This document shows, piece by piece, positions 125 to 61,415 of a DNA stretch of 64,000 bases (the stretch's first letter is position 1; the number at the start of each line of letters is the position of its first letter). The stretch comes from Phorcus lineatus (lineage: Eukaryota > Mollusca > Gastropoda > Trochida > Trochidae): NCBI GenBank assembly GCA_921293015.1, contig OV121094.1:37570054-37634053 (forward strand), given 5' to 3'. The notes beneath the pieces were generated by a model. It saw only the letters and a program-made list of their open reading frames with translations. It ran no database searches and had not been told where the DNA came from. A program made the position numbers and the translations under genes.

Positions 125-3058
125 TAAAATCCCTGAATAAGCAGTGATACATCAACTGGAAGATATACAAGCTTCAAGGAAGGGGTGGTATGATAATATA
201 TCGTGTCCTGTTTTCATTAGGCTTTCGGAGGTAAAGGTTCGACATTAGGTGCACTACCGATGTTTGTTTGCAGGATCGAAAAGATATTATATGGTTAGAT
301 GAGACACGTGACTTTTTCTGCACCCACTGATATGAGAATGAAAATCGATAGTACATATAACGTTAATTCAAATTTCTCTAATTTCAGCAATGATATACAA
401 CGAGTATCTGCTGTATCCTATTACGATATTCCAGTTGTTACAGCAATGGTTTGAGTGCCTACATCAGTCTTGGTTGTTTATGTCATTGTAAAAACTGTCT
501 TGTTACATATTGACTCCTGGTTTCCCTCTTTCAAGTGGCAAATCAATACTTGTGAACACTTCTGTGAGCTTAGTCTTTAAATGACCCCCTGGCGTGTTCA
601 TGCTTGACATTTTTTTAAAATATTCAAATCCTATATTACCATGTCCAAAATGAAGATAATTGTATTTGAGTCATCAAAAAACAATAACAAATTGTCATAT
701 TGTAATGCAAGATTTTCAACATTGCTTTTACAAGTGGAGCAAAATTAAAAGCTCAAACGAAGGAAACATTTAAATTTTTAAATAGATGCCCGCATCCTAT
801 TATACCATGTCCAAAATTAAGAAAAATTATTTGAGTCCTCGAAAAACAATATCAAATTGCCTTATGGTAATGCAATATTTCCCATAGATTTTACCACATT
901 GCTTTCAAAACTGGAGAAAGATTAAAAATTAAAACGAAGAAACTGTTTCAACTATTAAATAGATTCCCACCTTTTAGTTTGATAACATAAAGGAAAAATA
1001 TTACCACGAACATAAAATCCCCTTCTTATTGAACAGATACCTTTCCCTCTATATACATCGTCCCTCAACTATATTTCGTTTTCTCCCTGATGAAATATTA
1101 ACTGCTGCCACATGGATAGGATGAAAAAGAAAGTGAAGGTTATGTTAAATCTCTTTACATCTTCTGTCACAACGTCAAAGAATCATGTTATATCTTAACG
1201 CAAAGCCATACTTGTACGACTATGTTTTATTTTAGACAAAGTTGACGAACGAAATGTCAGTAATAAAATACAGAGAAAATAAAGAAAAAAGAAAAAACGT
1301 CATTACATGAACATGAAAGTCACGTCGTCTTGGCTGCATTGTTATAAAAAGTAGAATTATTGTTCAAGGATCTAAACACCCTAACAAAAATAGAAATCAT
1401 CATGTTTAAAGCCAGAAGACATTAACAAGAAAAGAACAATAAATAGCTGAGGGTTATATCGTTATATAAGCTATTTCAATCTTTGACATTTGTTGGTTTC
1501 AACTTCCATGATGTTTCAAATTATTGTTTCACAATAGATCTTGTCATTCATTAAACGTCCTATATTGTGTTTGGATTTACCTTTAGATTACCAAAGATTA
1601 ACGGTTTAACTGTTGAAAACAAAAAGGTGGGTGATTATGTACGAGAGTATTACATTAACATGTAAGATGTTAACCATTTCATTTTAGTAGGATATTAAGC
1701 GATCTGCCTAATGGATTTTAAGATTATTCAATGAGTCGAATTAAGAAAAAAAGAAGAAATTATAGCATGTGAAGCACTGTGATGTTCCCGCCACCACGTA
1801 CAATCCAACCTATTAATCATACCCTTGTTTGGTACTAGAAACTAGAAAAATTAAATTTGGACTAATTTAAGCAGAATATGCATATTTTAACCACTGGGTC
1901 AATCACATACCAATAAAAATTACCTTTGATCCGGAAACCCCAATATGCACTAAGTTCAAATTATTTCCATGAAATCCAGAATAACCAAAGTAACAAAAGG
2001 CAAAACTTTACCACTAGGTCTAAGCACACACCAAATTTTGTATAAGATATTGAATCGTTTTTGAGATATGATCCAGATAAAAAAGCAATAGGAAATTACG
2101 GAAAAACAGAGACGAAAACTGTACGTCTCTTAAACTAGTTTTCAATGTATCCACACAAAAAGAGAGAACTTATTTTGCGCTCCATAGCTAGAAAAGGCTG
2201 AAAACTTCTATGGAGCTTGCAAATTAAAAATTAGATATTGATATGAAAGACACAATATTTCCCTATATGATATAGAATAACTCATTAATCGTGTGACGAG
2301 TACCCGATCCCTTTTCTGCGCACACTAACTGACCGATACAAAAGCATAAGTATAAATATATTTACTCTTTCATTACGCAAAGGGAGACTGCAAAGTTGTT
2401 AACGATTTCATATTGCATATATTTACAATCTGAAAAAAGGAAAAATATTACACGGATTTTCAGATTGTTTATACATCAGAGTTGGTTATCATCGTCTCCA
2501 CCAAGCAACGTTAACCTAGGTCTTCAGGAGGGTAGGGTATAGACCACTTCTATGTAAGATTTTGTAGGAGAGCACACACCTCGATTTGTTCTCAGGTCAA
2601 TCATTTCACCACAGAGTCAATCCATTATCTCTGATATGCCGAAGCCGATACACACGGTGTGCAACAATATATCACTGTATGTTTCATAGCACAGGTTAAA
2701 CCGTCCTTTCACTTTACCGAGCTTCCGACACGCCACAGCCTGTACTTACAATCGGGGAAATATGGATTGTGAAAATGGGGCTTATGTCATTTTTTAACAT
2801 CGCCATTTAAGATGACTTGAGCTTTAAACTGGCTTGTATCTTTTCCTATCCAACAAGTTTATCGTTCAAAGTGATACCCTATGTGAGATATTGATTGATT
2901 GTTTAATTCTGAAAAAAGTAAGATGAATTATTTTTGTAAAGAAAAGTAAAAAGAATTTTTGTTGATCAGTTTGTGAAGTAATTGCCTTGACGCTTTACCC
3001 TTAAGGTCTTGTTCATCTCTTTTAAGCCGTTAACATAGAGTCGAAAGTAATGAAATCC

Positions 3059-12122: not shown

Positions 12123-12430
12123 TGAGGTGAGTTGGTGTTTTACGCCGCTTTCAAGATTATTTCACTAATATCGCGGCTGCTAGTATTATTGCAGGAAGAA
12201 AGCCCGCAACACCATTGTGGCTATGCATTGCCGTAAAACTTGCGAGCATAGGCTGGAACTAGCGAACCATGGGTGGTACTGCGCTGAAACTCAGTGTAGC
12301 ATTGCACCTAAACCTGACTGCGTGTAGAACAGTTCTCTACTGCAGACAAGGTTGCCGAGATCCTGGCGGGATTCAAACCACGGACCTCCTGATCCGAAGC
12401 AAAACGCGCTAACCACTGCGCTATCCCGCC
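12123..12430 (-). repeat. SINE-B, full length with tRNA-like head
   Basis: Best copy of a tRNA-derived SINE. Read on the minus strand it opens with GGCGGGATAGCGCAGTGGTT, a tRNA-like A-box region, and continues to GGTCCGTGGTTTGAATCCCG, a B-box-like segment. A roughly 200-base body follows, and the 3' tail ends GGCGTAAAACACCAACTCAC. The pol III promoter role is inferred from the box motifs. Imperfect direct repeats (TCTTTTGTTGTT and TCTTTTTTGTGG) flank it, suggesting an old target duplication. Confidence 0.9.
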
Positions 12431-17510: not shown

Positions 17511-18058
17511 GTGAGGTGATTTGGTGTGTGTGAGTGAGTGAGTTGGGGTTTAACGTGCTTAGAACAATATTTCAGTTGTTAAACAGGATGACAAGCATCC
17601 AAAAGAGAGTGGACAGATAAGGCAGAAAGGGAAAAGACGGAAAGAAAGGCATAGTAAGAGATAGACAACAGGTTTTAGAAGGACTCAAATTTAGTCTGGA
17701 TTCTACCAGTCGACCTGTGCAGCGTGGGTGTCCCTACCAGGAGCATGTTAGCTCCAGCTGGCATAGCTCTCAGGGTCTCTGAAGCACGCAAACCACCACA
17801 CCATGATAAGCTATTGAGTCCAGTGGTGGGTGATGTTTAACACCGATAGCGGCTGCTAGTATTAGTGCAGGGAGAAAGCCCGCAACACCAATGTGGCTAT
17901 GCAATGCGGTGAAACCTGCGAACCATGGGTGGTACTGCGCTGAATTTCAGTGTAGCATTGCACCCAAACCGGACTGCGTGTAGATTAAGTTGACGAGCCC
18001 CTGGCGGGGTTCGAACCACGGACCTTCTGATCCGAAGCCGAACGCGCTATTCCGCCCC
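17511..18058 (-). repeat. SINE-B copy split by a SINE-A
   Basis: The tail end GTGAGGTGATTTGGTGT lies at 17511-17526 and the rest (ATAGCGGCTGCTAGTATTAG through the tRNA-like head to TATTCCGCCCCC) at 17830-18058. The intervening 17527-17829 is a SINE-A. About 30 tail-proximal bases and some body bases are missing, so the copy is decayed. Confidence 0.8.
17527..17829 (-). repeat. SINE-A copy inserted into a SINE-B tail
   Basis: Reads GTGAGTGAGTTGGGGTTTAA, then the family body in reverse, ending TTGAGTCCAGTGGTGG. The short GGTGAT repeat on both sides fits a target duplication inside the SINE-B tail. It is younger than its host copy. Confidence 0.82.
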
Positions 18059-25136: not shown

Positions 25137-25380
25137 TCCAGCCAGGGGCTCGGTAACTTAGAGAACTGTTCTACACGCAGTCAGGTTTGGGTGCAATGCT
25201 ACACTGAATTTCAGCGCCGTAGCACCCATGGTTCGCTAGTTCCAGCCGATGCTCGCAGGTTTCACCGCAATGCATAGTCACAATGGTGTTGCAGGCTTTC
25301 TCCCTGCAATTATACTAGCAGCCGCGATATAAGTGTAATAATCTTGAAAGCGGCGTTAAATACCAACTCACCTCACCTCA
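25137..25380 (+). repeat. SINE-B, 5'-truncated, with target duplication
   Basis: Starts CCAGCCAGGGGCTCGGTAAC just downstream of where the tRNA-like head would be and ends GGCGTTAAATACCAACTCAC plus CTCACCTCA. Perfect 12-bp target duplications TCTAAACTAGGA lie at 25125-25136 and 25381-25392. The direction (truncated head, intact tail) confirms that the CTCAC end is the 3' end. Confidence 0.93.
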
Positions 25381-44120: not shown

Positions 44121-44848
44121 CTAACAAACGATGTCCGATCACGGTATCAGTCTGATATCTCTACACAACAATGTGTTACTTTGTTACATGTTTATATAAT
44201 CACTTGAACAATATTGTGAAAAGGTCATTTGCTTCAGGCATCTAAAGAAATTCCGGTTGATGTTCAACCTTAACCGATTTCCGAGTTTAAATAATCAATC
44301 AAACTGCAAGCAATCTCGTACTGGTTGCCTCAATGCTTGGTTAAGTGCTCTCAAATCAAACGAATCAAAATGATGAATCTCAATGGGTTCAATGGACCCA
44401 CTGGGTGTCATTCACTGTGGAAATGATTTGGCCATCCAATGTTTTTAACACAGAGAACTCCAACGACTTAACCACCATTAACCGAACTGTGCTCAAATAC
44501 TCACGGAAATATAATTGAAATGATATCCAGCCCTCAATAAAACTCTGAAGATAGCCATAATGTTTTCTTTTATTAATGGTTCTTAAATATAGTAATTTCC
44601 TTTGAAATCGTTTAAAATGAATTTGAAATTCTATTTTTGAGAGAGTTAGTGACTTGAGATTTAATATGATTTGAACCTAATGTCAGTTATTAAACAAGAA
44701 ATTAAAAATCACCTAAAGGACAGAAGATTGTCGATAATTATGGCTAATAAGAAGATTAACCCTAGAATCATAGAATTTTATACATGAATGGAATACCTGT
44801 ATATGATCAAGTATATTTGTGCATTCATAATAACTTACATCTGGCTGC
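44121..44848. other. Non-coding; diverged repeat of 53.99-54.32 kb
   Basis: TTGGTTAAGTGCTCTCAAAT, TGAATCTCAATGGGTTCAAT and AACACAGAGAACTCC recur in the same order near 54080-54205. Both copies lie just outside annotated elements. The dispersed repeat family is unidentified. Confidence 0.45.
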
Positions 44849-46110
44849 TTGATGTGTGTTTATCATCAATTAATAAAATGTGCCCAAAACCCCAACCTAA
44901 AGAAACCAAGTCAATTTCCTTTTGATAAAATCTATAAACTAGGGGCAAATAATGATTTACATAAAGATTGTAGGAACCCTTTCTGGAGAAGTGTATTGAA
45001 TGCATGGTCTAAATATCTTAGATCTGAGAAAGATTATCCTGATAATATTGATTATATTTTATCCCAATCCTTATGGTTTAACCATCATTTTAAAGACAAG
45101 AAAATGTTTATTCAAAACTGGTACAATAAAGGATTGCACTGTATAAAGGATATCTGTAATTCTAGAGGGCTAATGACATTTGATGAATTGAAAAAGGTAT
45201 ATGACATTCGTGGAACATTCCTAGATTATCACAAATTGCTCTTTGGTTTCCCTGCTTTGTGGAAACAATGTATTAATCAGCAAACCTCTATCGTAAAAGT
45301 AAATCTGACTATTAGCAATAGTGTATTAGACTTGCTCAAGACAAAAAAGGGATCAAGATATTTTTATGACCGTATCATTACATGCAATAGTTACCCAAAG
45401 GTTTGTGATAAGTGGACAGCAAATTTTGATATCTCTTCTATGAACTGGAAATATATTTTTCTTCAGTACAGATGCTGTACAAAGGATGTCAAATTATTAG
45501 AATTTCAATTCAAATTTCTTCACCGGATTGTTTACACCAAGAGGGAATTAAAAGCTATGAAATTATTAAATGAGGATAATTGCTCTTTTTGTAAAACCGA
45601 GAAGGAAAACTTGGTTCATGTTTATATAGAATGTGAATTTGTAAAGGAATTTTGGTTGAGTGTGGAACTATTTTGTAATACCCATACAAAATTGGATGTA
45701 GTTTTGGACACAAATGCTATTCTATTTGGTTTTCCTGCCCAATATAGGATGTTAAATCATTTACTCCTATTGAGCAAAAGACACATCTTTTTAAGTAGCC
45801 TTAGAGGCCAAGCCTTATCGTTTGATAAGGCTCTCAAAAAATACAAAGAAGTCTATACCACAGAAAAATTTATTGCCTGTAAAAATCACAAAACTAATGC
45901 ATTTGAAAAAAAATGGTCTCCACTATCAAGCATACTAGAAAATTAATTATATATTACATTTGTATTCCCAATGTACCTAATACAGCCATTCTATTTCTCT
46001 TCAAATATTGTACCTTCTGAATGCTGTCATATTTTAGCCATGTCCATGTAACTCTACCGGATTGATTGCTGGAATAAAATTTTTTGAAAACAAATAAAAA
46101 ATTAATAGGT
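44849..46110 (+). mobile_element. 5'-truncated L1/Tx1-like LINE
   Basis: Only the C-terminal part of the reverse-transcriptase polyprotein remains open (44852-45946). A roughly 150-base 3' UTR follows, with GGAATAAAA near 46070 and an A-rich end (GAAAACAAATAAAAAATTAA). A stop codon lies shortly upstream of the frame and no reverse-transcriptase or endonuclease motifs precede it. No target duplication was identified. Confidence 0.75.
44852..45946 (+). CDS. LINE ORF2 C-terminal region, partial
   Basis: 364 codons from the first ATG. Residues 74-138 read LWFNHHFKDKKMFIQNWYNK, CIKDICNSRGLMTFDELKKV and FLDYHKLLFGFPALWKQCI, the region just after the reverse-transcriptase domain in L1/Tx1 proteins. 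Residues 220-268 (FKFLHRIVYTKRELKA, then C244, C247, H256, C261 and VKEFW) match the terminal zinc-binding zf-RVT-like segment. The end, LLLLSKRHIFLSSLRGQALS to NAFEKKWSPL, is also typical. In full-length elements this part is thought to bind nucleic acid during target-primed reverse transcription. The frame is intact, so the insertion may be fairly young, but it has no catalytic domain and no promoter. Confidence 0.8.
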   Translation: MCVYHQLIKCAQNPNLKKPSQFPFDKIYKLGANNDLHKDCRNPFWRSVLNAWSKYLRSEKDYPDNIDYILSQSLWFNHHFKDKKMFIQNWYNKGLHCIKDICNSRGLMTFDELKKVYDIRGTFLDYHKLLFGFPALWKQCINQQTSIVKVNLTISNSVLDLLKTKKGSRYFYDRIITCNSYPKVCDKWTANFDISSMNWKYIFLQYRCCTKDVKLLEFQFKFLHRIVYTKRELKAMKLLNEDNCSFCKTEKENLVHVYIECEFVKEFWLSVELFCNTHTKLDVVLDTNAILFGFPAQYRMLNHLLLLSKRHIFLSSLRGQALSFDKALKKYKEVYTTEKFIACKNHKTNAFEKKWSPLSSILEN

Positions 46111-48331: not shown

Positions 48332-48630
48332 TGAAACGCCGCTTTCAAGATTATTTCACTTGTTTCACGGCTGCTAGTACTACTGCAGGGAGAATATCCG
48401 CAACACCATCGTGACCATGCCTTGCGGTGAAACCTGAGAGCATTGACTGGCACTAGCGAACCATGGGCGGTGCTAGGGGCGATGCTATAGGTTGAATTCA
48501 GTGTAGCACCCAAACCTTACTGCGTGTAAAACATTTCTCTACTGCAGATAAAGTTGCCGAGTCCCAAATTCGAACCACGAACCTCTTGATCCGGAGCCCA
48601 ACGCGCTAACGCTACGCTACCCCCAACCCA
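48332..48630 (-). repeat. SINE-B copy
   Basis: AACGCCGCTTTCAAGATTAT through ACTAGCGAACCATGGGCGGT to the tRNA-like head region (ATTCGAACCACGAACCTCTT, then CAACGCGCTAACGCTACGCT). Nearly full length but diverged. Confidence 0.87.
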
Positions 48631-48806
48631 ACCCCCTCTCACTCGTGGAAGCTGCTTCTGACGTCAATTGATTGATATATGTTGACAAAGGGATTAATTC
48701 CCTGCAGCTAGTTATCGGTGTCTATTTGGTACAGTTTTTGCAACACTAATTTCCCATGCGCTATTGGGTGTATATCTGTAGTTGTAGATAAAAGTGTAAG
48801 TGTAAA

Positions 48807-48920
48807 TAGTCCAGTCAATCTATGGATAAACCTAGAACAAATTGCAAAAGAAATGTTTTTTGCTGGAAATGAAGTATTAGTATCAGTGTATCAACATATC
48901 AAAAATGTAGGAAAATGTAA
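48807..48920 (+). repeat. Left terminal inverted repeat
   Basis: Begins TAGTCCAGTCAATCTATGGA, then AACCTAGAACAAATTGCAAA, AGAAATG and TTTTTTGCT, a diverged middle, and ends TCAACATATCAAAAATGTAG plus GAAAATG. The outer 55 bases match the right repeat closely; an 8-base gap lies after the first 20. Confidence 0.88.
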
Positions 48921-49637
48921 TTAGTGCAACACAGTTTTTGTGTGCTTTAAACTCACAAATCAAAACCGCGAAGATGGTGTCTCGTAAAGGTCTCCGTAGG
49001 CCTAAAGGGAGACAACTCGCAATATAAACAACGGCGATTGACGTAGACGTTGCTCGTGAGAAATTGATAAACAAGCAGTACTCATCAAAATGGAATCCTT
49101 TCCTCAGTAAGTATATGACTCTTTCCATGTCCTAACAAAAAACTGTATGTGTAATCAAACTGAAAACACGGTGTAAATGTTCATAGATCACTTTTTTTAA
49201 AGTCTGTCGAGACGGCCGAATGACGTCATCATTTACCGCTCTTCAGAAATTTGTAGGATTCTACGAAATACTAGATCAACATTTCATGTTTTTTAGTTGT
49301 AAAAGGTTCAACAACATCAATCTTTCATTATGAACGATTTAAAATATCTGTATATTCACAGAAAACGCTAATTTTCTCATACCCTTCATTTCAAGGATTT
49401 AAAAACTATGGAAACATTTTCGGGTCATTTTTATTTTTCGTTTTATGACGTTTTTTTCTTTAATAACATATGTGGCGTCGATTAAACGATAAAGTTTTAA
49501 GCATTTATTCTAAAATACAATTTTGTTTACCGTTCTGGATGTATTTGTATTCAATATATTGATAATTGTACCAAATAAGACTTATTTAGCATTTCATTAA
49601 GAATTAGTTTTTTGGTCTTTTTTAGGTGAACCATACG

Positions 49638-52600
49638 ATGGATGTGTGTGTCATTTGTAACAAATCCCTTACAAATGGCCAGAGGACAGTTGTACTAAGG
49701 GAAAAGGGAAGTTTTGGTATAAATAGTGCCTCTATCTTGAGAAAGGACAGTATTTCTACACACCCAGGACAGTCTGTTCATCTTGATTGCCGTCAGCAAT
49801 ATTGTAACAAAAATGTTATCATCAAAGATCTAAAGAAAGACTGCAAGTTGATTGACTTATCAATCTCTCATCCAAGACTTCGGTCAGAACAACCAGTGTT
49901 TCAATTTAGTGAACATTGTCTTTTTTGTGCAAATTCAGCAAAACTAAGTGGGAAGAAAAGGGGGTATGATGTTTTCCCGGTTAGAACCAGTGATTTCCAG
50001 AAAACAGTTAGACAAATCTGCATTGATCGAGGGGATGACTGGTCGCAGAGGGTGCTGTCTAGGATTGACTTTGCACAAGATTTACATGCAGCAGATGCAG
50101 TATACCATCAAGTATGTAACATCAATTTCCGCACAGGTAAACAGACCCCTCTTTCCTTTCAATCTGACACACATGAACCGTCACCTGGCAGACCAAAAGA
50201 TAACATGAGGGAACGGACCTTTCTGAAAGTGATGGACTATCTATCTGAAAATGACAACGAGCAGAACACAGTCAGTGATCTTGTTCAGAAAATGAAGGAG
50301 TTTGGATGCTGTGATCCGTACAGCATTAAGTACATGAGAAAGAAAATTGAAGAACATTTTGGAAGTGATGTCATCATAACAAACATAAATGGAAGATCAA
50401 GTGTGGTTACCTTCAAGCAGACCGCTTCGGCTGTTCTTCATGAGTTTTATGATTCTCCAAAATTGAGTGACTGTGATGATGAGAAATTAAGAATGGTGAG
50501 AACTGTTGGAAACCTGATAAAGAATGACATTAAATCACTAGATACATCAAAACAGACATATCCTAACTCACAGGACATTTCATCTGTTGAGAACAACATA
50601 TCATTGCTGCCTGATTCTCTGTACCTTCTGCTGAAAACATTGTTTTCAGAAAAAAATGCTGACATCAAGATAGCATCAATTGGACAGGCCATTGTTCAAG
50701 CTACACGCCCAAGGGTTATTCTTGCTCCTCTCCAGATAGGTTTAGCAGTACAGATGCATCACCAGTTTGCTTCAAAGTTTCTAATCGATACCCTGCACAG
50801 TCAAGGATTCTGTTCATCATACTCAGAAGTGAAGAGGTTTGAGGTGTGTGCAGCAAAGACACATGGAACTGACATACCAGGTCTTCAAGCAGGCCATTTC
50901 ATCCAGTATGTTGCTGACAATGCTGACCACAACATCAACACCATTGATGGATACAACACATTTCATGGCATGGGAATTATTGCTGCCATCACTCCAGGAG
51001 TTAGAAATAAACTTCATATTCAAAGACACTTTGCATCAAATGAAGAAATTGAAGAAATAGGGAAAATAGACATCAAATTCTTCAAATCATCCCCTCTTGC
51101 AAGCCTACCCTTGACATATCATGAACTTGGTGACCTCAGCTGTGATGACACAACGTGGAAGGTGGATTTTCTGTGGAAGATTGTGTGGCCTCTACGTTCA
51201 CCTAGGCCTGGCTGGGCAGGATTGATGCAAACAGTAACAAAGGGGCAATACCCAGGAAAATCATCCATCTCATACATGCCAATGATTGACATGAATGCTA
51301 CAGACATGAGTTGTGTTTACTCCACTCTTCACTTTGTTTGTACACAGGCTAAAGCTCAGAATGTGACTCCGATCATAACATTTGATCAACCTTTGTGGTG
51401 GAAAGCTCAAATCATAGTTCAGAATGAACCGGTGAACAGTGAACTAAAGAATATTGTTCTGCGTCTTGGAGGTTTCCACACAGAAATGAGCTACCTTGGA
51501 TGTATTGGACATATCATGAGAGGTTCAGGTTTACAGGAATTGATGGAAGTTGTGTATGCTCCAACCACAGTCATGCACATGCTCAGCGGTAAAGCACTGT
51601 CACGGGCAGTCAGAGGACATTTCTTGATAAATGCTGCACTAAATGCCCTGTTAGTACAAAAGGCTTTCTCAATTCATCACACAGTGGCAAAACATGACCT
51701 TTCATCAGAAACTGACGCAGAGCAGATATGCCAATCAGAACAAAGTACGACACCCGATTCGGATCCTCAACAGCCATCACATGATGCAGAGCAGATATGC
51801 CAATCAGAACAAAGTACGACATCCGATTCGGACCATGTGTCAAGGAAATATCAAAACCCAGTCATAGTATTCGATGGATATGAGACAGGCCCATCGACTA
51901 AAGATGTTGCTCACATGAGACGCTCAAGGGGTATGGTAGCACCAGAGGTAATCTTTGTAGAAGACATGCCCGTTGCAACACGGAAGGATCATTTCCTAGC
52001 AAATCCCTCAAACAAACAAAGATTCATCAACATGCTCAGCAAGAAACTTGAAGAAACGGGTTTCAAGACCGTCCACGCCAGAGGTGATGCCGACCTCCTC
52101 ATTGTGCAGACTGCAGTGGAGAGTGCATCAAGTTACCCAACAACAGTCATAGGTGAGGACACAGATCTCCTTGTTTTATTGTGTTTTCATGCAGAACCAA
52201 CATCTCTGGGACTCTACTTCATGTCTGAGGGGAAAAAGATGATGAAGAAACAGAGGGTGTGGAACATAACTGAACTGAAGGTGAACATTGGAAGTGAAAT
52301 ATGTAACTACTTGCCCTTTGTGCATGCAGCTGGAGGATGTGACACCACATCACGCCTCTTTGGGATAGGAAAGGGTGTTGTCCTGAAGAAACTCATAAAG
52401 GACAGCTATTTCAGGGAACATGTTCATCAGTTCTGTACCGATCAAGTAAAAGAAAACATCATGTCAGCTGGAGAAACAATCATTGTTTGCCTGTACAATG
52501 GACTACCAGGAGAAAAACTAGATAGTCTGCGGTATCAGCGCTTCTCTGAAAAGGTTGCAACAAGTTCTTCCTATGTCCAGGTTCACACACTGCCTCCTAC

Positions 52601-52922
52601 ATCAGCAGCAGCACGCTACCACAATGCCCATGTGTATCTCCAGGTCAAGGAATGGATAGGAGATAGTAGCTCAATGGACCCTGAAGACTGGGGATGGATA
52701 AAAGTGGCCGACAAACTTGAACCACGCACAACAGATAAACCTCCAGCCCCAGACACACTTCTGAGAGTAATCCGGTGCAACTGTAAGACTGAGTGTGACA
52801 GCAGACGATGTACCTGCAGAAGACATGGTCTGGAATGCTCGGTGGCATGTGGACAATGCAGAGGTGTTGCTTGCAGTAACGCCATGTGTAACCTAACTGA
52901 CATGGTTTCTGGTGACAATTGA
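49638..52922 (+). CDS. Transposase-like protein with XPG/FEN-type nuclease and CXC-like domains
   Basis: 1094 aa from ATG 49638; the GTG twelve bases upstream is preceded by TTTTTTAG, so a spliced 5' leader is likely. N-terminus: Cys/His pairs C4, C7, H48, C51, C56 and H93, C94, C97, H157, C160, probable zinc ligands. Residues 579-590 (ITFDQPLWW) resemble the first acidic motif of XPG/FEN nucleases. VIVFDG (D746), GDAD (D817, D819), GEDTDLLV (D841, D843) and AAGGCDTTSRLFGIGKG (D902, then a GIGKG turn like the FEN H2TH) follow in family order. All expected metal-binding acids are present. C-terminus 1047-1084: C-x-C-x3-C-x4-C-x-C-x6-C-x3-C-x2-C, as in tesmin-type CXC DNA-binding domains. A 23-residue duplication (693-738) sits in the low-complexity linker before VFDG. 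Nuclease action on element ends is inferred, not shown. Confidence 0.8.
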   Translation: MDVCVICNKSLTNGQRTVVLREKGSFGINSASILRKDSISTHPGQSVHLDCRQQYCNKNVIIKDLKKDCKLIDLSISHPRLRSEQPVFQFSEHCLFCANSAKLSGKKRGYDVFPVRTSDFQKTVRQICIDRGDDWSQRVLSRIDFAQDLHAADAVYHQVCNINFRTGKQTPLSFQSDTHEPSPGRPKDNMRERTFLKVMDYLSENDNEQNTVSDLVQKMKEFGCCDPYSIKYMRKKIEEHFGSDVIITNINGRSSVVTFKQTASAVLHEFYDSPKLSDCDDEKLRMVRTVGNLIKNDIKSLDTSKQTYPNSQDISSVENNISLLPDSLYLLLKTLFSEKNADIKIASIGQAIVQATRPRVILAPLQIGLAVQMHHQFASKFLIDTLHSQGFCSSYSEVKRFEVCAAKTHGTDIPGLQAGHFIQYVADNADHNINTIDGYNTFHGMGIIAAITPGVRNKLHIQRHFASNEEIEEIGKIDIKFFKSSPLASLPLTYHELGDLSCDDTTWKVDFLWKIVWPLRSPRPGWAGLMQTVTKGQYPGKSSISYMPMIDMNATDMSCVYSTLHFVCTQAKAQNVTPIITFDQPLWWKAQIIVQNEPVNSELKNIVLRLGGFHTEMSYLGCIGHIMRGSGLQELMEVVYAPTTVMHMLSGKALSRAVRGHFLINAALNALLVQKAFSIHHTVAKHDLSSETDAEQICQSEQSTTPDSDPQQPSHDAEQICQSEQSTTSDSDHVSRKYQNPVIVFDGYETGPSTKDVAHMRRSRGMVAPEVIFVEDMPVATRKDHFLANPSNKQRFINMLSKKLEETGFKTVHARGDADLLIVQTAVESASSYPTTVIGEDTDLLVLLCFHAEPTSLGLYFMSEGKKMMKKQRVWNITELKVNIGSEICNYLPFVHAAGGCDTTSRLFGIGKGVVLKKLIKDSYFREHVHQFCTDQVKENIMSAGETIIVCLYNGLPGEKLDSLRYQRFSEKVATSSSYVQVHTLPPTSAAARYHNAHVYLQVKEWIGDSSSMDPEDWGWIKVADKLEPRTTDKPPAPDTLLRVIRCNCKTECDSRRCTCRRHGLECSVACGQCRGVACSNAMCNLTDMVSGDN

Positions 52923-53340
52923 AGTAAGCCAAGACAGTAATAGTGAATTATCAGAATGAATAGGCGGTTATTTCTAATCAGTAGAAGTCTGATATACAGT
53001 AAAAATACTATTGCATACTCAGACGTGAATCACTGTAGATGAAATTGATTTATACAATGACAAATTTGGACACGTTTGGGATGAACTGGGAAATAGTTGA
53101 TACTTTCGATTATCCAGTCATATAGTATGGATAAACGGGTTTGTATCAGCAAATCAAATGTATGAAATAATTTCTTATATCACAAAAAAATTAATTCCAT
53201 TATATGTATCAGCATATTTATTATATTTGCTGAAATGATGCTGTTATCTTAAAAATTTCCTTATAATTCCAATATTTGTGGTCACAGACGTAGGTCATAA
53301 GGTGTATTTCATCATGTAAAAAAATGAATGTTCCCCTCGT

Positions 53341-53462
53341 TCAATTTTTCTACATTTTTTATATGTTAATCTCGTAAACTCAAGGTTTTTGATGAAGCAA
53401 AAACCATTTCTTTTGCAATTTGTTCTAGGTTAGGGGTTTTTCTTGGTAAATTGACTGGACTA
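53341..53462 (-). repeat. Right terminal inverted repeat
   Basis: Reverse-complemented it begins TAGTCCAGTCAATTTACCAA, then AACCTAGAACAAATTGCAAA, AGAAATGGTTTTTGCTT and, after a diverged stretch, TTAACATATAAAAAATGTAG. It mirrors 48807-48920. Confidence 0.88.
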
Positions 53463-55001
53463 AAAGTGACAACCGTTTAATGTAACTTGTTTAAGATAAT
53501 ATAACGTCTAATGCCTCATTATGAATGTACATTTGTTTATGGGAAAAACACTAAATACAACAATGAATATAAATTTCCACATATACATATAACAAGCCAC
53601 TTACACGAATTTATCCATTTAAACTAGCCGATATGTTAGAAATTCAGTTCTCTACTGCAGACAAAGTTACCAAGCCCCTGGCGGAATTCGAACCATGGAC
53701 CTTTTCATACGAAGCGGAACGCGCTAACCACTGCGCCCCGATTGTGGATGGAGACGTGTAAGTGTTGAATGGCTGAAACACCGCTGACACGTTGAACCCT
53801 ACTCGCCTACATTTTAAAGGTCATCACGACAATATTCCCACTTAAAAATCTGGCATATGTATGTCGACCCTTTACTTCCTATTTAACAAAGACTACTCAA
53901 AATAATAATATATAAAAAAACGTGCGTGTAAGGGGTGTTTATATATTTACTAATATCAAAATTAAATGCTTTTATTTCTTCAAGCAACGAGTCTGTTCAA
54001 TCTTAAATATAACCTTGACTACTTTCATAGTGTGAGGTAATCAATCAAACTGCCACAGTCTCTTATATTGGGCTCAGTTCTTGGTTAAGTGCTCTCAAAT
54101 CAAATAAATCCAAATGACGAATCTCAATAGGTTCAGTAGACCCACTTGGTGCCAATCACTGTTATAATGAGTCGTCTATTCAATGTTATCAACAGATAGA
54201 ACTCCCACTACTAAAAGTGGCAGACATCCATTTATCCAGACTCTGTAATTAGACTCGTTGATAGAGCAACAGAATGAACCCTTGCCCAGAATAAAGTCGT
54301 TGTTTTTTCCTTAATTATCCACAAATTTAATCTCATGAGATCACATTAAACTTTGATAATAAATGTATATAGTTTCAATTCCATACTGGCATTATGGCAT
54401 GTAACAGGTCAACTAGAGTTATTAAAATCTGTCTTTATTCATGTTGTTTATCCACGGATCAGATTTAACTATCTTCTTTGAATATGATAAACAATAATCT
54501 TCTCCCCCGACATACCAGAAAGCGGAACAAGGGGCATTGTATTCAAAGCCGTCTGTAAATCCAGATTTCATTTCCCATTACCGATAACTTTCACGAATCG
54601 TTGCATTCGAAGTCCTGATGATTTGCGATAGGTCACCGCATCACTTTGGAAACTCTTGAAATCGCAAACTCTAATGAAGTGTTTCAACAAATGTCTTCAA
54701 ATTGGAAGACATCTGACATGTAGATCCACAGACATCTTTTGATAATGAAGAACTCAATCTCAATATCTCATTAACTGTTGCTCCCAATGTCTCGAATTTA
54801 CGCGGCGACCAGTTTGTTTAGACCTTAACCGTAAATCAATAGATACCACTGTCTTTAGGAGGGATAAGCTCTTGGATAGAGTGGTTATTTGGATATATCT
54901 TGTAAAATAAAGCATACACCTTTATCTTTTTCTTTGACTAGAATAATTGAATACATTGCATTCATTAAAGTTAGAACATAGCCATATTCCATGAAGAAAT
55001 C
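53463..55001. other. Non-coding stretch with a SINE-B piece and an old repeat
   Basis: 53646-53740 is a SINE-B tRNA-like head (see its entry). 53990-54320 resembles 44.25-44.56 kb. No gene seen. Confidence 0.45.
53646..53740 (-). repeat. SINE-B, tRNA-like head only
   Basis: TTCTCTACTGCAGACAAAGT, AATTCGAACCATGGACCTTT and CGCGCTAACCACTGCGCC cover the head and the start of the body. The body and tail are missing. Confidence 0.8.
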
Positions 55002-58653: not shown

Positions 58654-59038
58654 AATGATACATGTACATCTTGTTATGAATAAGTTACATGAGGAGTTTG
58701 ATGTAAGTAATGATACATGTACATCTTGTTATGAATAAGTTACATGAGGAGTTTGATGTAAGTAATGATACATGTACATCTTGTTATGAATAGGTTACAT
58801 GAGGAGTTTGATGTAAGTAATGATACATGTACATCTTGTTATGAATACGTTACATGAGGAGTTTGATGTAAGTAATGATACATGTACAACTTGTTATGAA
58901 TAGGTTACATGAGGAGTTTGATGTAAGTAATGATACATGTACATCTTGTTATGAATAGGTTACATGAGGAGTTTGATGTAAGTAATGATACATGTACATC
59001 TTGTTATGGATAGGTTACATGAGGAGTTTGATGTAAGT
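58654..59038. repeat. Tandem repeat, 55-bp unit x 7
   Basis: AATGATACATGTACATCTTG opens each unit at 58654, 58709, 58764, 58819, 58874, 58929 and 58984. Each ends GAGGAGTTTGATGTAAGT. Units differ by only a few bases (AATAAG/AATAGG/AATACG/GATAGG), so the array is recent or homogenised. The period is not a multiple of three. Confidence 0.97.
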
Positions 59039-61415
59039 AATGAGCCTCACAGAGAAAGTGAGAAGGTATTCATGCTGTGCATTACTTTGTCAGCGATATC
59101 GGTATTCAGCATCAACACCTCTGTCGCAATGACGTCATCGACGGATCGCATATTCACCTCGGAATGACATTTGTTCATAGCAGGAGAGAGATTTAGGAGA
59201 ACCAAATCATGCAGTAGGTTGGATGCTGAAGCAATTGAAATCCACAGTGAAGAATTATTGAAAGGGCAACAGCTGATACGTGCTTTGGCACATTGTCTTG
59301 ATAGAACATACAACCTTCGCGCGATCGGTTCATTTCCTTGTTTCATTGTTTCAATGTCTTGCCTAAATTACTTTATACATACAGGCATAGCATGTGGCGT
59401 TAACTGTGACACATTTGGAGGTAATACGCCTTGAGAAAATTCTAAGAATCCCAGAATACTGAGGTCATCACATGTTGCTGCTGACGAACACTCTTTGCCT
59501 AATGTGACGTCGCCTGCTTACATTGCTTTCGACTTTGTTTCGTGTTGAAAGTGGTGGGAACAGAATTCATCTATCGTTTTGATTCGTTTTAGGAAACTGT
59601 CAGGACCTCTTGCAAATGACAGATTGTCCTTTGACAGGTTGTGTCGTGACTGGGATCAGCTATCAAGGGTTTTTGGCACCCATCAGTTCCGAAGTTGGTG
59701 ATAATGAAATGAACTCGCTCCTGGCTTAGTCCAACACTGGAGTAACGCGCGTTCATTCCATAACTTTCCAAATTTGGCAAGGCGGTCTTGCCAAAAACTG
59801 AAAGGCGTCCTTTCCACACTAAGGAAAGGTCGCCTTTCCGTTGCCTATCTTTCCAAATCGATTAAGTCAATGAAGCGCGCATAAAATCGCACTTTACGTT
59901 TTTCTCAATTCTAAGCAGTATGGTTGAAAAGGGTTTTTTTATTTCTTATTTGAAACATGAATTTGATTTCATGAAATTACGAGATCATGAAACTGTGTTA
60001 ATCATGGACGTGGAACGATTATTTTTAAATTAATAACCAGGAGAAAAGTGAAATGAAAAGCTGTTAAGAAGTCATTTTGAATTAAGTTAGTAGTTCAACA
60101 TGTATTAAATCGAGTGGTTGAGTGGCATATATAAAGAAACAGTGTCATATTTAATTGGATAACATAGTTCACATATCTATAAAGGTCATCAAAGGGATTT
60201 ACTTTATAGTTATTTAACGTATAACGTGATTGTTATAATAATTTTATGGATAGTTATATGGCACTTTTCCACGCACTGATACATGCTTAAAGTGCATTAC
60301 TCTAAAGGTAACGAATTTGCAAAGCGCTAAATTAAGTAAGGTAAAAATGGAAAGCTGCCTCATATACTTCTTTCATAAATCAATAAAGCATGTGTTAGTT
60401 GATCAGTTAAACATGTGGAACGTACCTTTTCAGTGAATGTATCCACAAGAAAATAAATATCCAAGTCCTTTTTAGCGTAAGAACAGAACGAAAAACCCAT
60501 CACTGATCAGTGGCTAAACAGATAAACGACACAATCTCTACATCCAGCTATCACATTCAAACAATAATGGCGACCAGATGAGAAAAAAAGAGAACCGATG
60601 CAAAATTAGTTTGATAATTTCTTATCTAACCTCTCAGATTTCATTGGATAACAGGATGCGGTAAAGCAGTGTATCCTGTTGTTTCAAGACAGGAGAGACA
60701 CCGTCCTGACAAATCAGACTGATACATGGTCACTTGTCTACAAGCCACCTGCATGTGTTTGTACAGCACGGTTGACACCTGCTCAATACCTGAAGCTGAC
60801 AACTGGTCATAGTCTGATAGGTTTTATTGGTCTGAGATGCTAAATGGTATTATCTGACGCTAACGAGGACTCGTTGTTTTAGTAACATCTGTTAATTTTT
60901 CTAAAATCAGAACAACATAACAATAATAAACTCTCAATTTGCCCATGCTGATCTCAGGAAAATAAGCCACTCACTGTAAAAAATAATATTGAATGCTGGA
61001 TGACATAGATGAAAGAGAATGACCACACAAAATCATTTTTCATAGAGGCACGAAAAAGGATGAACATACATCTTAATAAATAAAAGATCAGCACACACAT
61101 CTCATATGATTTCCTCTGAAATTAAAATATTTAGTGATATTCGGAATTTTACCATGAGTTTATAACAACATGCTGTTTTTTCTATAGTTTGCTTGAGGTA
61201 TCAAGTCAGAACATATTAATGAACATAGAAACCTATGTTTTAAGGTAGAGGAATTTGGATGAGGTACCACTTTTTATAAAATAAACAATTTAACTTAGAA
61301 TAAAGCCACTTTAAGTAAAAGGCATCAAGTTATTTTCATATATAAACAGTTGATATGATAAACTTTTGTCATATGCTCTATTTAGCCATTAATATAAGAA
61401 AACAAGTTTGAAATT
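59039..61415. other. Non-coding stretch without recognisable genes
   Basis: Short open frames at 58985-59434 show no family motif. AAAGGCGTCCTTTCC and GGAAAGGTCGCCTTTCC near 59800-59840 form small palindromes. Nothing else recognised. Confidence 0.35.

Follow-up and report, generated by a model that had tools for sequence, protein, structure and literature searches.

A very probable young, non-autonomous, internally deleted Academ-type DNA transposon copy in Phorcus lineatus

We analyzed a 64,000-nt stretch of the Phorcus lineatus genome (assembly GCA_921293015.1, contig OV121094.1, positions 37,570,054 to 37,634,053; hereafter, the window) and the DNA transposon that it carries at positions 48807–53462. 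This 4656-bp element, which has exact ends and long imperfect inverted repeats, is very probably a DNA transposon copy of the Academ type, most like AcademX, that is young, non-autonomous, and internally deleted. A preliminary description, made from the window alone, had taken its gene to be undamaged and possibly active. Comparison with a sister copy elsewhere in the genome, C2, revealed that the window copy equals C2 minus 1314 bp (438 codons), so that its 1094-codon frame is a deletion product.

Specifically, position 3026 of the window copy is followed by what is position 4341 in C2, with the dinucleotide GA common to both sides of the junction, and the reading frame survives because 1314 bp corresponds to 438 codons. 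Outside the deletion, the two copies differ at 7 of the 3026 bases that precede the junction and at 6 of the 1630 that follow (13 of 4656 in total, 99.7% identity), and residues 1–732 match the C2 protein at 100% identity. Comparison with a third copy, C5, assigned ten of the 13 differences to the window side (five on either side of the junction) and three to the C2 side; the window-specific coding changes, three synonymous ones upstream of the junction and three that alter amino acids downstream of it, are too few to show selection. The deleted segment, a block conserved in the other family rows, includes E917 and D1145, the putative third acid of a DDE triad and the putative first aspartate of an XPG/FEN-like nuclease, respectively. 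Since both residues are lost, the 1094-aa product should have neither activity, and the protein of the window copy is probably dead. An autonomous element would need a complete transposase gene, of which 1094 of 1532 codons are present; with the other 438 gone, activity from the element's own protein is not supported. The deletion junction lies at a 69-bp tandem repeat, of which C2 has 3.1 units and the window copy two.

The boundaries of the element had been placed correctly: AAA flanks it on both sides, and an exact 3-bp target duplication, no longer, was found in every one of the 11 elements (the window copy among them) for which both ends were located. About ten of these duplications are independent, since L035 and L037 have common flanks, and the count leaves aside copies for which only one end was found (L014, L027, L029–L031, and L033). 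The long inverted repeats were likewise confirmed, as the inverted ends of the window copy pair in blocks of 16 nt at 94%, 36 nt at 97%, and 42 nt at 79%, and the local alignment of left and right ends scored 85, compared with 30 for the best of 200 shuffles. The outer 16 bp were found again, with 0–3 mismatches, at the ends of diverged related families. Between the ends lies the single open frame of 1094 codons already described (49638–52919 plus stop).

The preliminary description had tied its reading to the presence of other genomic copies, and a search of the 957.8-Mb assembly (74 contigs) found them. Two genome searches scored 31 of 647 and 40 of 78 candidates, so the copy numbers are lower bounds and more copies may exist. 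Besides the window copy, there are at least five close copies with both ends: C2 (5970 bp), C5 (7264 bp, including an insertion), C9 (4384 bp), C11 (6036 bp), and C41 (3669 bp); among these five, C2 alone has an unbroken full-length frame, of 1532 aa. The reading as a single host gene was rejected, given copies with different target duplications. The near-identical C2 sister supports recent movement of the window element and agrees with the earlier suggestion that it may be young. A second Academ-type family is represented by L029, L030, and L032 (C7, C13, and C12), each with a stop-to-stop frame of 1479 codons; L029 and L030 differ at 4 residues and L030 and L032 at 6, which suggests that this family also moved recently. 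Searches of viral contigs found no relative, and the ratio of nonsynonymous to synonymous substitution rates by segment across family copies gave no usable signal, the copies being few, decayed, or saturated.

The full-length C2 protein contains five motifs in the order VLDGG (D1145), VFDGY, GDADLL, GEDTDLL, and GCDTTS..GIGK, which we take to be an XPG/FEN-like series. The ordered acidic motifs noted previously hold for the second motif onwards; VLDGG, the putative first one, is missing from the window copy, leaving its catalytic acid set incomplete. Alignment of the XPG region with archaeal FEN1 by HHalign placed 180 columns in register at motifs 2–5 (score 24.5, P = 0.018); 2 of 100 shuffles attained this score and none the length. 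This comparison drew on 49 FEN1 loci from a set of 53 (three were omitted as partial and one dropped by length) and, for A residues 1131–1400, on 11 of the 33 Academ rows (rows with <35% coverage dropped), of which HHalign kept 9. The likeness to FEN1/XPG nucleases lies in the collinear acidic motifs and in the resemblance of Academ GCDTTS..GIGK to the FEN1 GTDY..GIGLKK block, and the difference in the absence of the putative first aspartate from the window copy. D1145 is kept in all nine family rows (some rows are close kin), and one family member matches NYN_YacP below cut-off (E = 0.0016, A residues 1243–1284). Several points weigh against this assignment: the HHalign probability of the FEN1 alignment is just 2.6%; with a score of 23.1 over 33 columns, a different Academ region comes close to the value for the XPG region; the alignment begins after D1145, so the role of this residue is read from motif order alone; and some of the later acids are not constant in decayed copies (D1257 is kept in 9 of 11 rows, D1281 in 8 of 9). 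Taken as a whole, an XPG/FEN-like domain in the family is supported but falls short of proof.

The element had also been described as encoding an XPG nuclease rather than a DDE transposase, which is probably wrong because the family seems to have both and the window copy neither whole. Across the family rows, some of them close kin, D427 is conserved in 11 of 11, D583 in 10 of 10, D913 in 9 of 9, and E917 in 9 of 10, and D427, D583, and E917 form a candidate DDE triad with a large insertion before the glutamate. Of the six family proteins aligned (from five loci), three matched DUF6589 (PF20231) below cut-off, with E-values of 1e-4, 3.4e-4, and 7.6e-4, and these matches map to A residues 785–875, 599–896, and 580–880. 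When A residues 370–1130 were aligned with DUF6589 by HHalign, 220 columns scored 27.1 (P = 0.033), in register at two D motifs and FH..M, pairing ADNADHN with GDNVNF, TFDQPLWW with GGDQLT, and FHTEMSYL with FHLQMSLL. None of 100 column shuffles reached this score or the aligned length, and other regions scored lower (20.2 for A 1–370 and 16.5 for A 1131–1532). The spacing between the two aspartates is 156 in the Academ family and 153–159 in eight DUF6589 proteins, and the order of the GDN, GDQ (or GDY), and FH motifs is shared by all eight. A further D...E likeness, DLVIEQ/DMAMEH, was seen by eye outside the HHalign alignment, with the pattern present in 3 of the 8 DUF6589 proteins. The DUF6589 elements differ from the Academ family in their longest frames (613–839 aa, compared with 1532 aa for the C2 protein) and in that no inverted pair of the 16-bp Academ end turned up in the eight loci, whose flanks are limited.

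DUF6589 itself appears to be a transposase core, not a host domain. In this genome, it has 65 matches, 64 of them over cut-off (three of those only with neighbours), and the 65th (26.3 bits) falls on L036, an Academ copy; none of the 14 control genomes had a match. The DUF6589 loci L094–L101 include dispersed copies, which look mobile since L095, L096, and L098 are >99% identical. DUF6589 is not named in the literature searched. Passages of two published works place Academ among the DDD/E (PMC9587614) and DDE/D (PMC10294476) superfamilies. Several observations count against a DDE-like core. Residue 917 is a proline in one of ten family rows, and other acids (D430, D510, D913, D986, and E1096) are equally conserved, so the triad is a choice among several. 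The HHalign probability for DUF6589 is just 1.5%, and with A 370–740 alone, 1 of 100 shuffles beats the score (none reaches the aligned length). No Pfam family was matched by the window or C2 protein; the PDB gave no sequence match for the window protein and two chance-level matches for the family profile (best E = 0.35); and single-sequence AlphaFold2 models of two pieces of the window protein were uninformative, with mean predicted local distance difference test scores of 33.6 and 35.9. NCBIfam gave no match and PHROGs a single one (E = 0.22). Overall, motif order plus marginal profile matches lend support to a DDE-like core in the family without proving it.

The nuclease of AcademX is of the XPG type. 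The family studied here resembles AcademX in its inverted ends, 3-bp duplications, and one large protein with a putative nuclease-like domain, and the window copy differs from AcademX in being 438 codons short. A passage of PMC10045372 gives target duplications of 3–4 bp for AcademX and 9–10 bp for AcademH and ties the difference to nuclease versus helicase. Because the 3-bp duplications and the putative nuclease-like domain fit, the family appears most like AcademX of the Academ superfamily, a placement made against published descriptions; the earlier assignment to Academ is thereby supported.

We propose that the full-length 1532-aa protein would carry a DDE-like core between a Cys/His-rich N-terminus and an XPG/FEN-like domain further downstream, and that it would bind the element ends. 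The DDE core would cut and then insert the element at a 3-bp staggered target in a cut-and-paste reaction, while the FEN-like nuclease domain may trim or resolve flaps or ends. The window copy would have been derived from a full-length parent by the in-frame loss of 1314 bp at a 2-bp microhomology, as might be expected from interrupted gap repair or end joining. Since both ends are kept, the window copy could move in trans, and we infer that this would be its only means of mobility. A point against this reading is that, among the copies read, a single one with the 733–1170 deletion is known, so the deletion may postdate the insertion.

Internal deletions were also found in other members. Among 24 of the 32 family loci L009–L040 searched (8 superseded or overlapping loci omitted), L036 (C9), which belongs to another family, has an in-frame loss of about residues 894–1167 with its ends and TAT duplication intact and its 5′ part broken, and the decayed L018 has an out-of-frame loss of about residues 665–1173. 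The right deletion ends of the window copy (residue 1170), L036, and L018 fall within about ten codons of one another, the latter two being alignment estimates; this clustering was noticed after the fact and involves 3 of 25 loci (24 plus the window). Such structures recall the KP and other deleted P elements of Drosophila, in which an internal deletion, retained ends, and a coexisting full-length copy are likewise found; PMC12393704 describes internally deleted P elements that full-length elements may mobilise, some of them encoding possible repressors. The likeness of the window copy to KP elements concerns deletion structure alone, not spread, expression, or repression.

By analogy with the KP protein, the short frame could be a functional variant, kept for binding the ends and repressing the full-length transposase, although we regard this as unlikely. 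The preserved frame, the identity of the 732 residues before the junction to C2, the independent in-frame loss in L036, and the precedent of defective P proteins occupying transposase sites (PMC12393704) would fit. However, one deletion in three stays in frame by chance, a single copy of the window deletion is known, L036 is otherwise decayed and the comparable deletion of L018 is out of frame, and the handful of coding changes cannot show selection. The broader idea, that Academ deletions recurrently remove the catalytic glutamate and first nuclease aspartate and keep the presumed end-binding N-terminus, with the in-frame ones acting as dominant-negative repressors of their own family, is similarly doubtful. 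Less probable still is the reading of the element as an intact XPG-nuclease transposon, autonomous and independent of any DDE transposase. The single long frame, the sound ends, the target duplication, and the very close relatives would suit it, but we rejected it because C2 reveals the loss of 438 codons in a conserved family block. The XPG-like domain itself is without its putative first aspartate, and DDE-like motifs similar to DUF6589 are present in the family. An assembly error around the 69-bp repeat, at the end of a unit of which the junction does lie, is scarcely credible and was rejected, since the sequence to the right of the junction is no longer repeat and a collapse of identical repeats would therefore not produce the junction, and since the window copy has its own substitutions relative to C2 and C5 on both sides. 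The preferred reading remains a young, deleted copy of an Academ-type transposon, with the features listed in Table 1.

Table 1. Coordinates of the transposon features in the window
Feature	Position	Strand	Details
Left target-site duplication copy AAA	48804..48806	.	Flank comparison
Left terminal inverted repeat	48807..48939	+	Outer 16 bp TAGTCCAGTCAATCTA, then imperfect inner part with 36-bp 97% block
Gene 5′ part, residues 1–732	49638..51833	+	Cys/His-rich N-terminus, first part of putative transposase core; D427 50916–50918, D583 51384–51386
69-bp tandem repeat, two copies	51713..51832	+	Junction at end of second copy
Deletion junction	51832..51833	.	C2 residues 733–1170 absent; 2-bp microhomology GA
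Gene 3′ part	51834..52919	+	XPG/FEN-like motifs 2–5 and C-terminal cysteine cluster; putative first motif gone
Right terminal inverted repeat	53319..53462	-	Inverted-repeat search, local alignment
Right target-site duplication copy AAA	53463..53465	.	Flank comparison

Upstream of the main frame, a splice consensus CA/GTAAGT and a T-rich stretch ending TTTTTTAG, both seen by eye, suggest a possible 5′-leader intron at 49107–49625; after splicing, an ATG at 49090 would open a frame of six codons that closes at a TGA upstream of the main ATG (49638). Outside the element, a short interspersed repeat, CTCTACTGCAGATAAAGTT..AATTCGAACC, occurs on both sides of the transposon (48500–48660 and 53645–53728) and elsewhere in the window (12304–12427, 17960–18049, and 25159–25194); it looks derived from transfer RNA (tRNA) by eye, and ARAGORN finds no tRNA in it. 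At 44834–45946, the window also contains an open frame of 370 aa in which a zf-RVT domain (PF13966) was matched at E = 1.6e-6; this frame is probably the 3′-terminal part of a non-long-terminal-repeat retrotransposon. A tandem array occupies 58654–59043 (55-bp unit, 7.1 copies, 98% matches).

These results imply that a transposon cannot be taken as intact simply because good ends enclose a long open frame; here, the loss came to light only against a sister copy. The full-length copy and its deletion derivative, 99.7% identical over shared bases, make a natural helper/donor pair for Academ chemistry. If true, the link between the Academ core and DUF6589 would supply a candidate catalytic triad and bear on whether DDE chemistry operates in XPG-like transposons.

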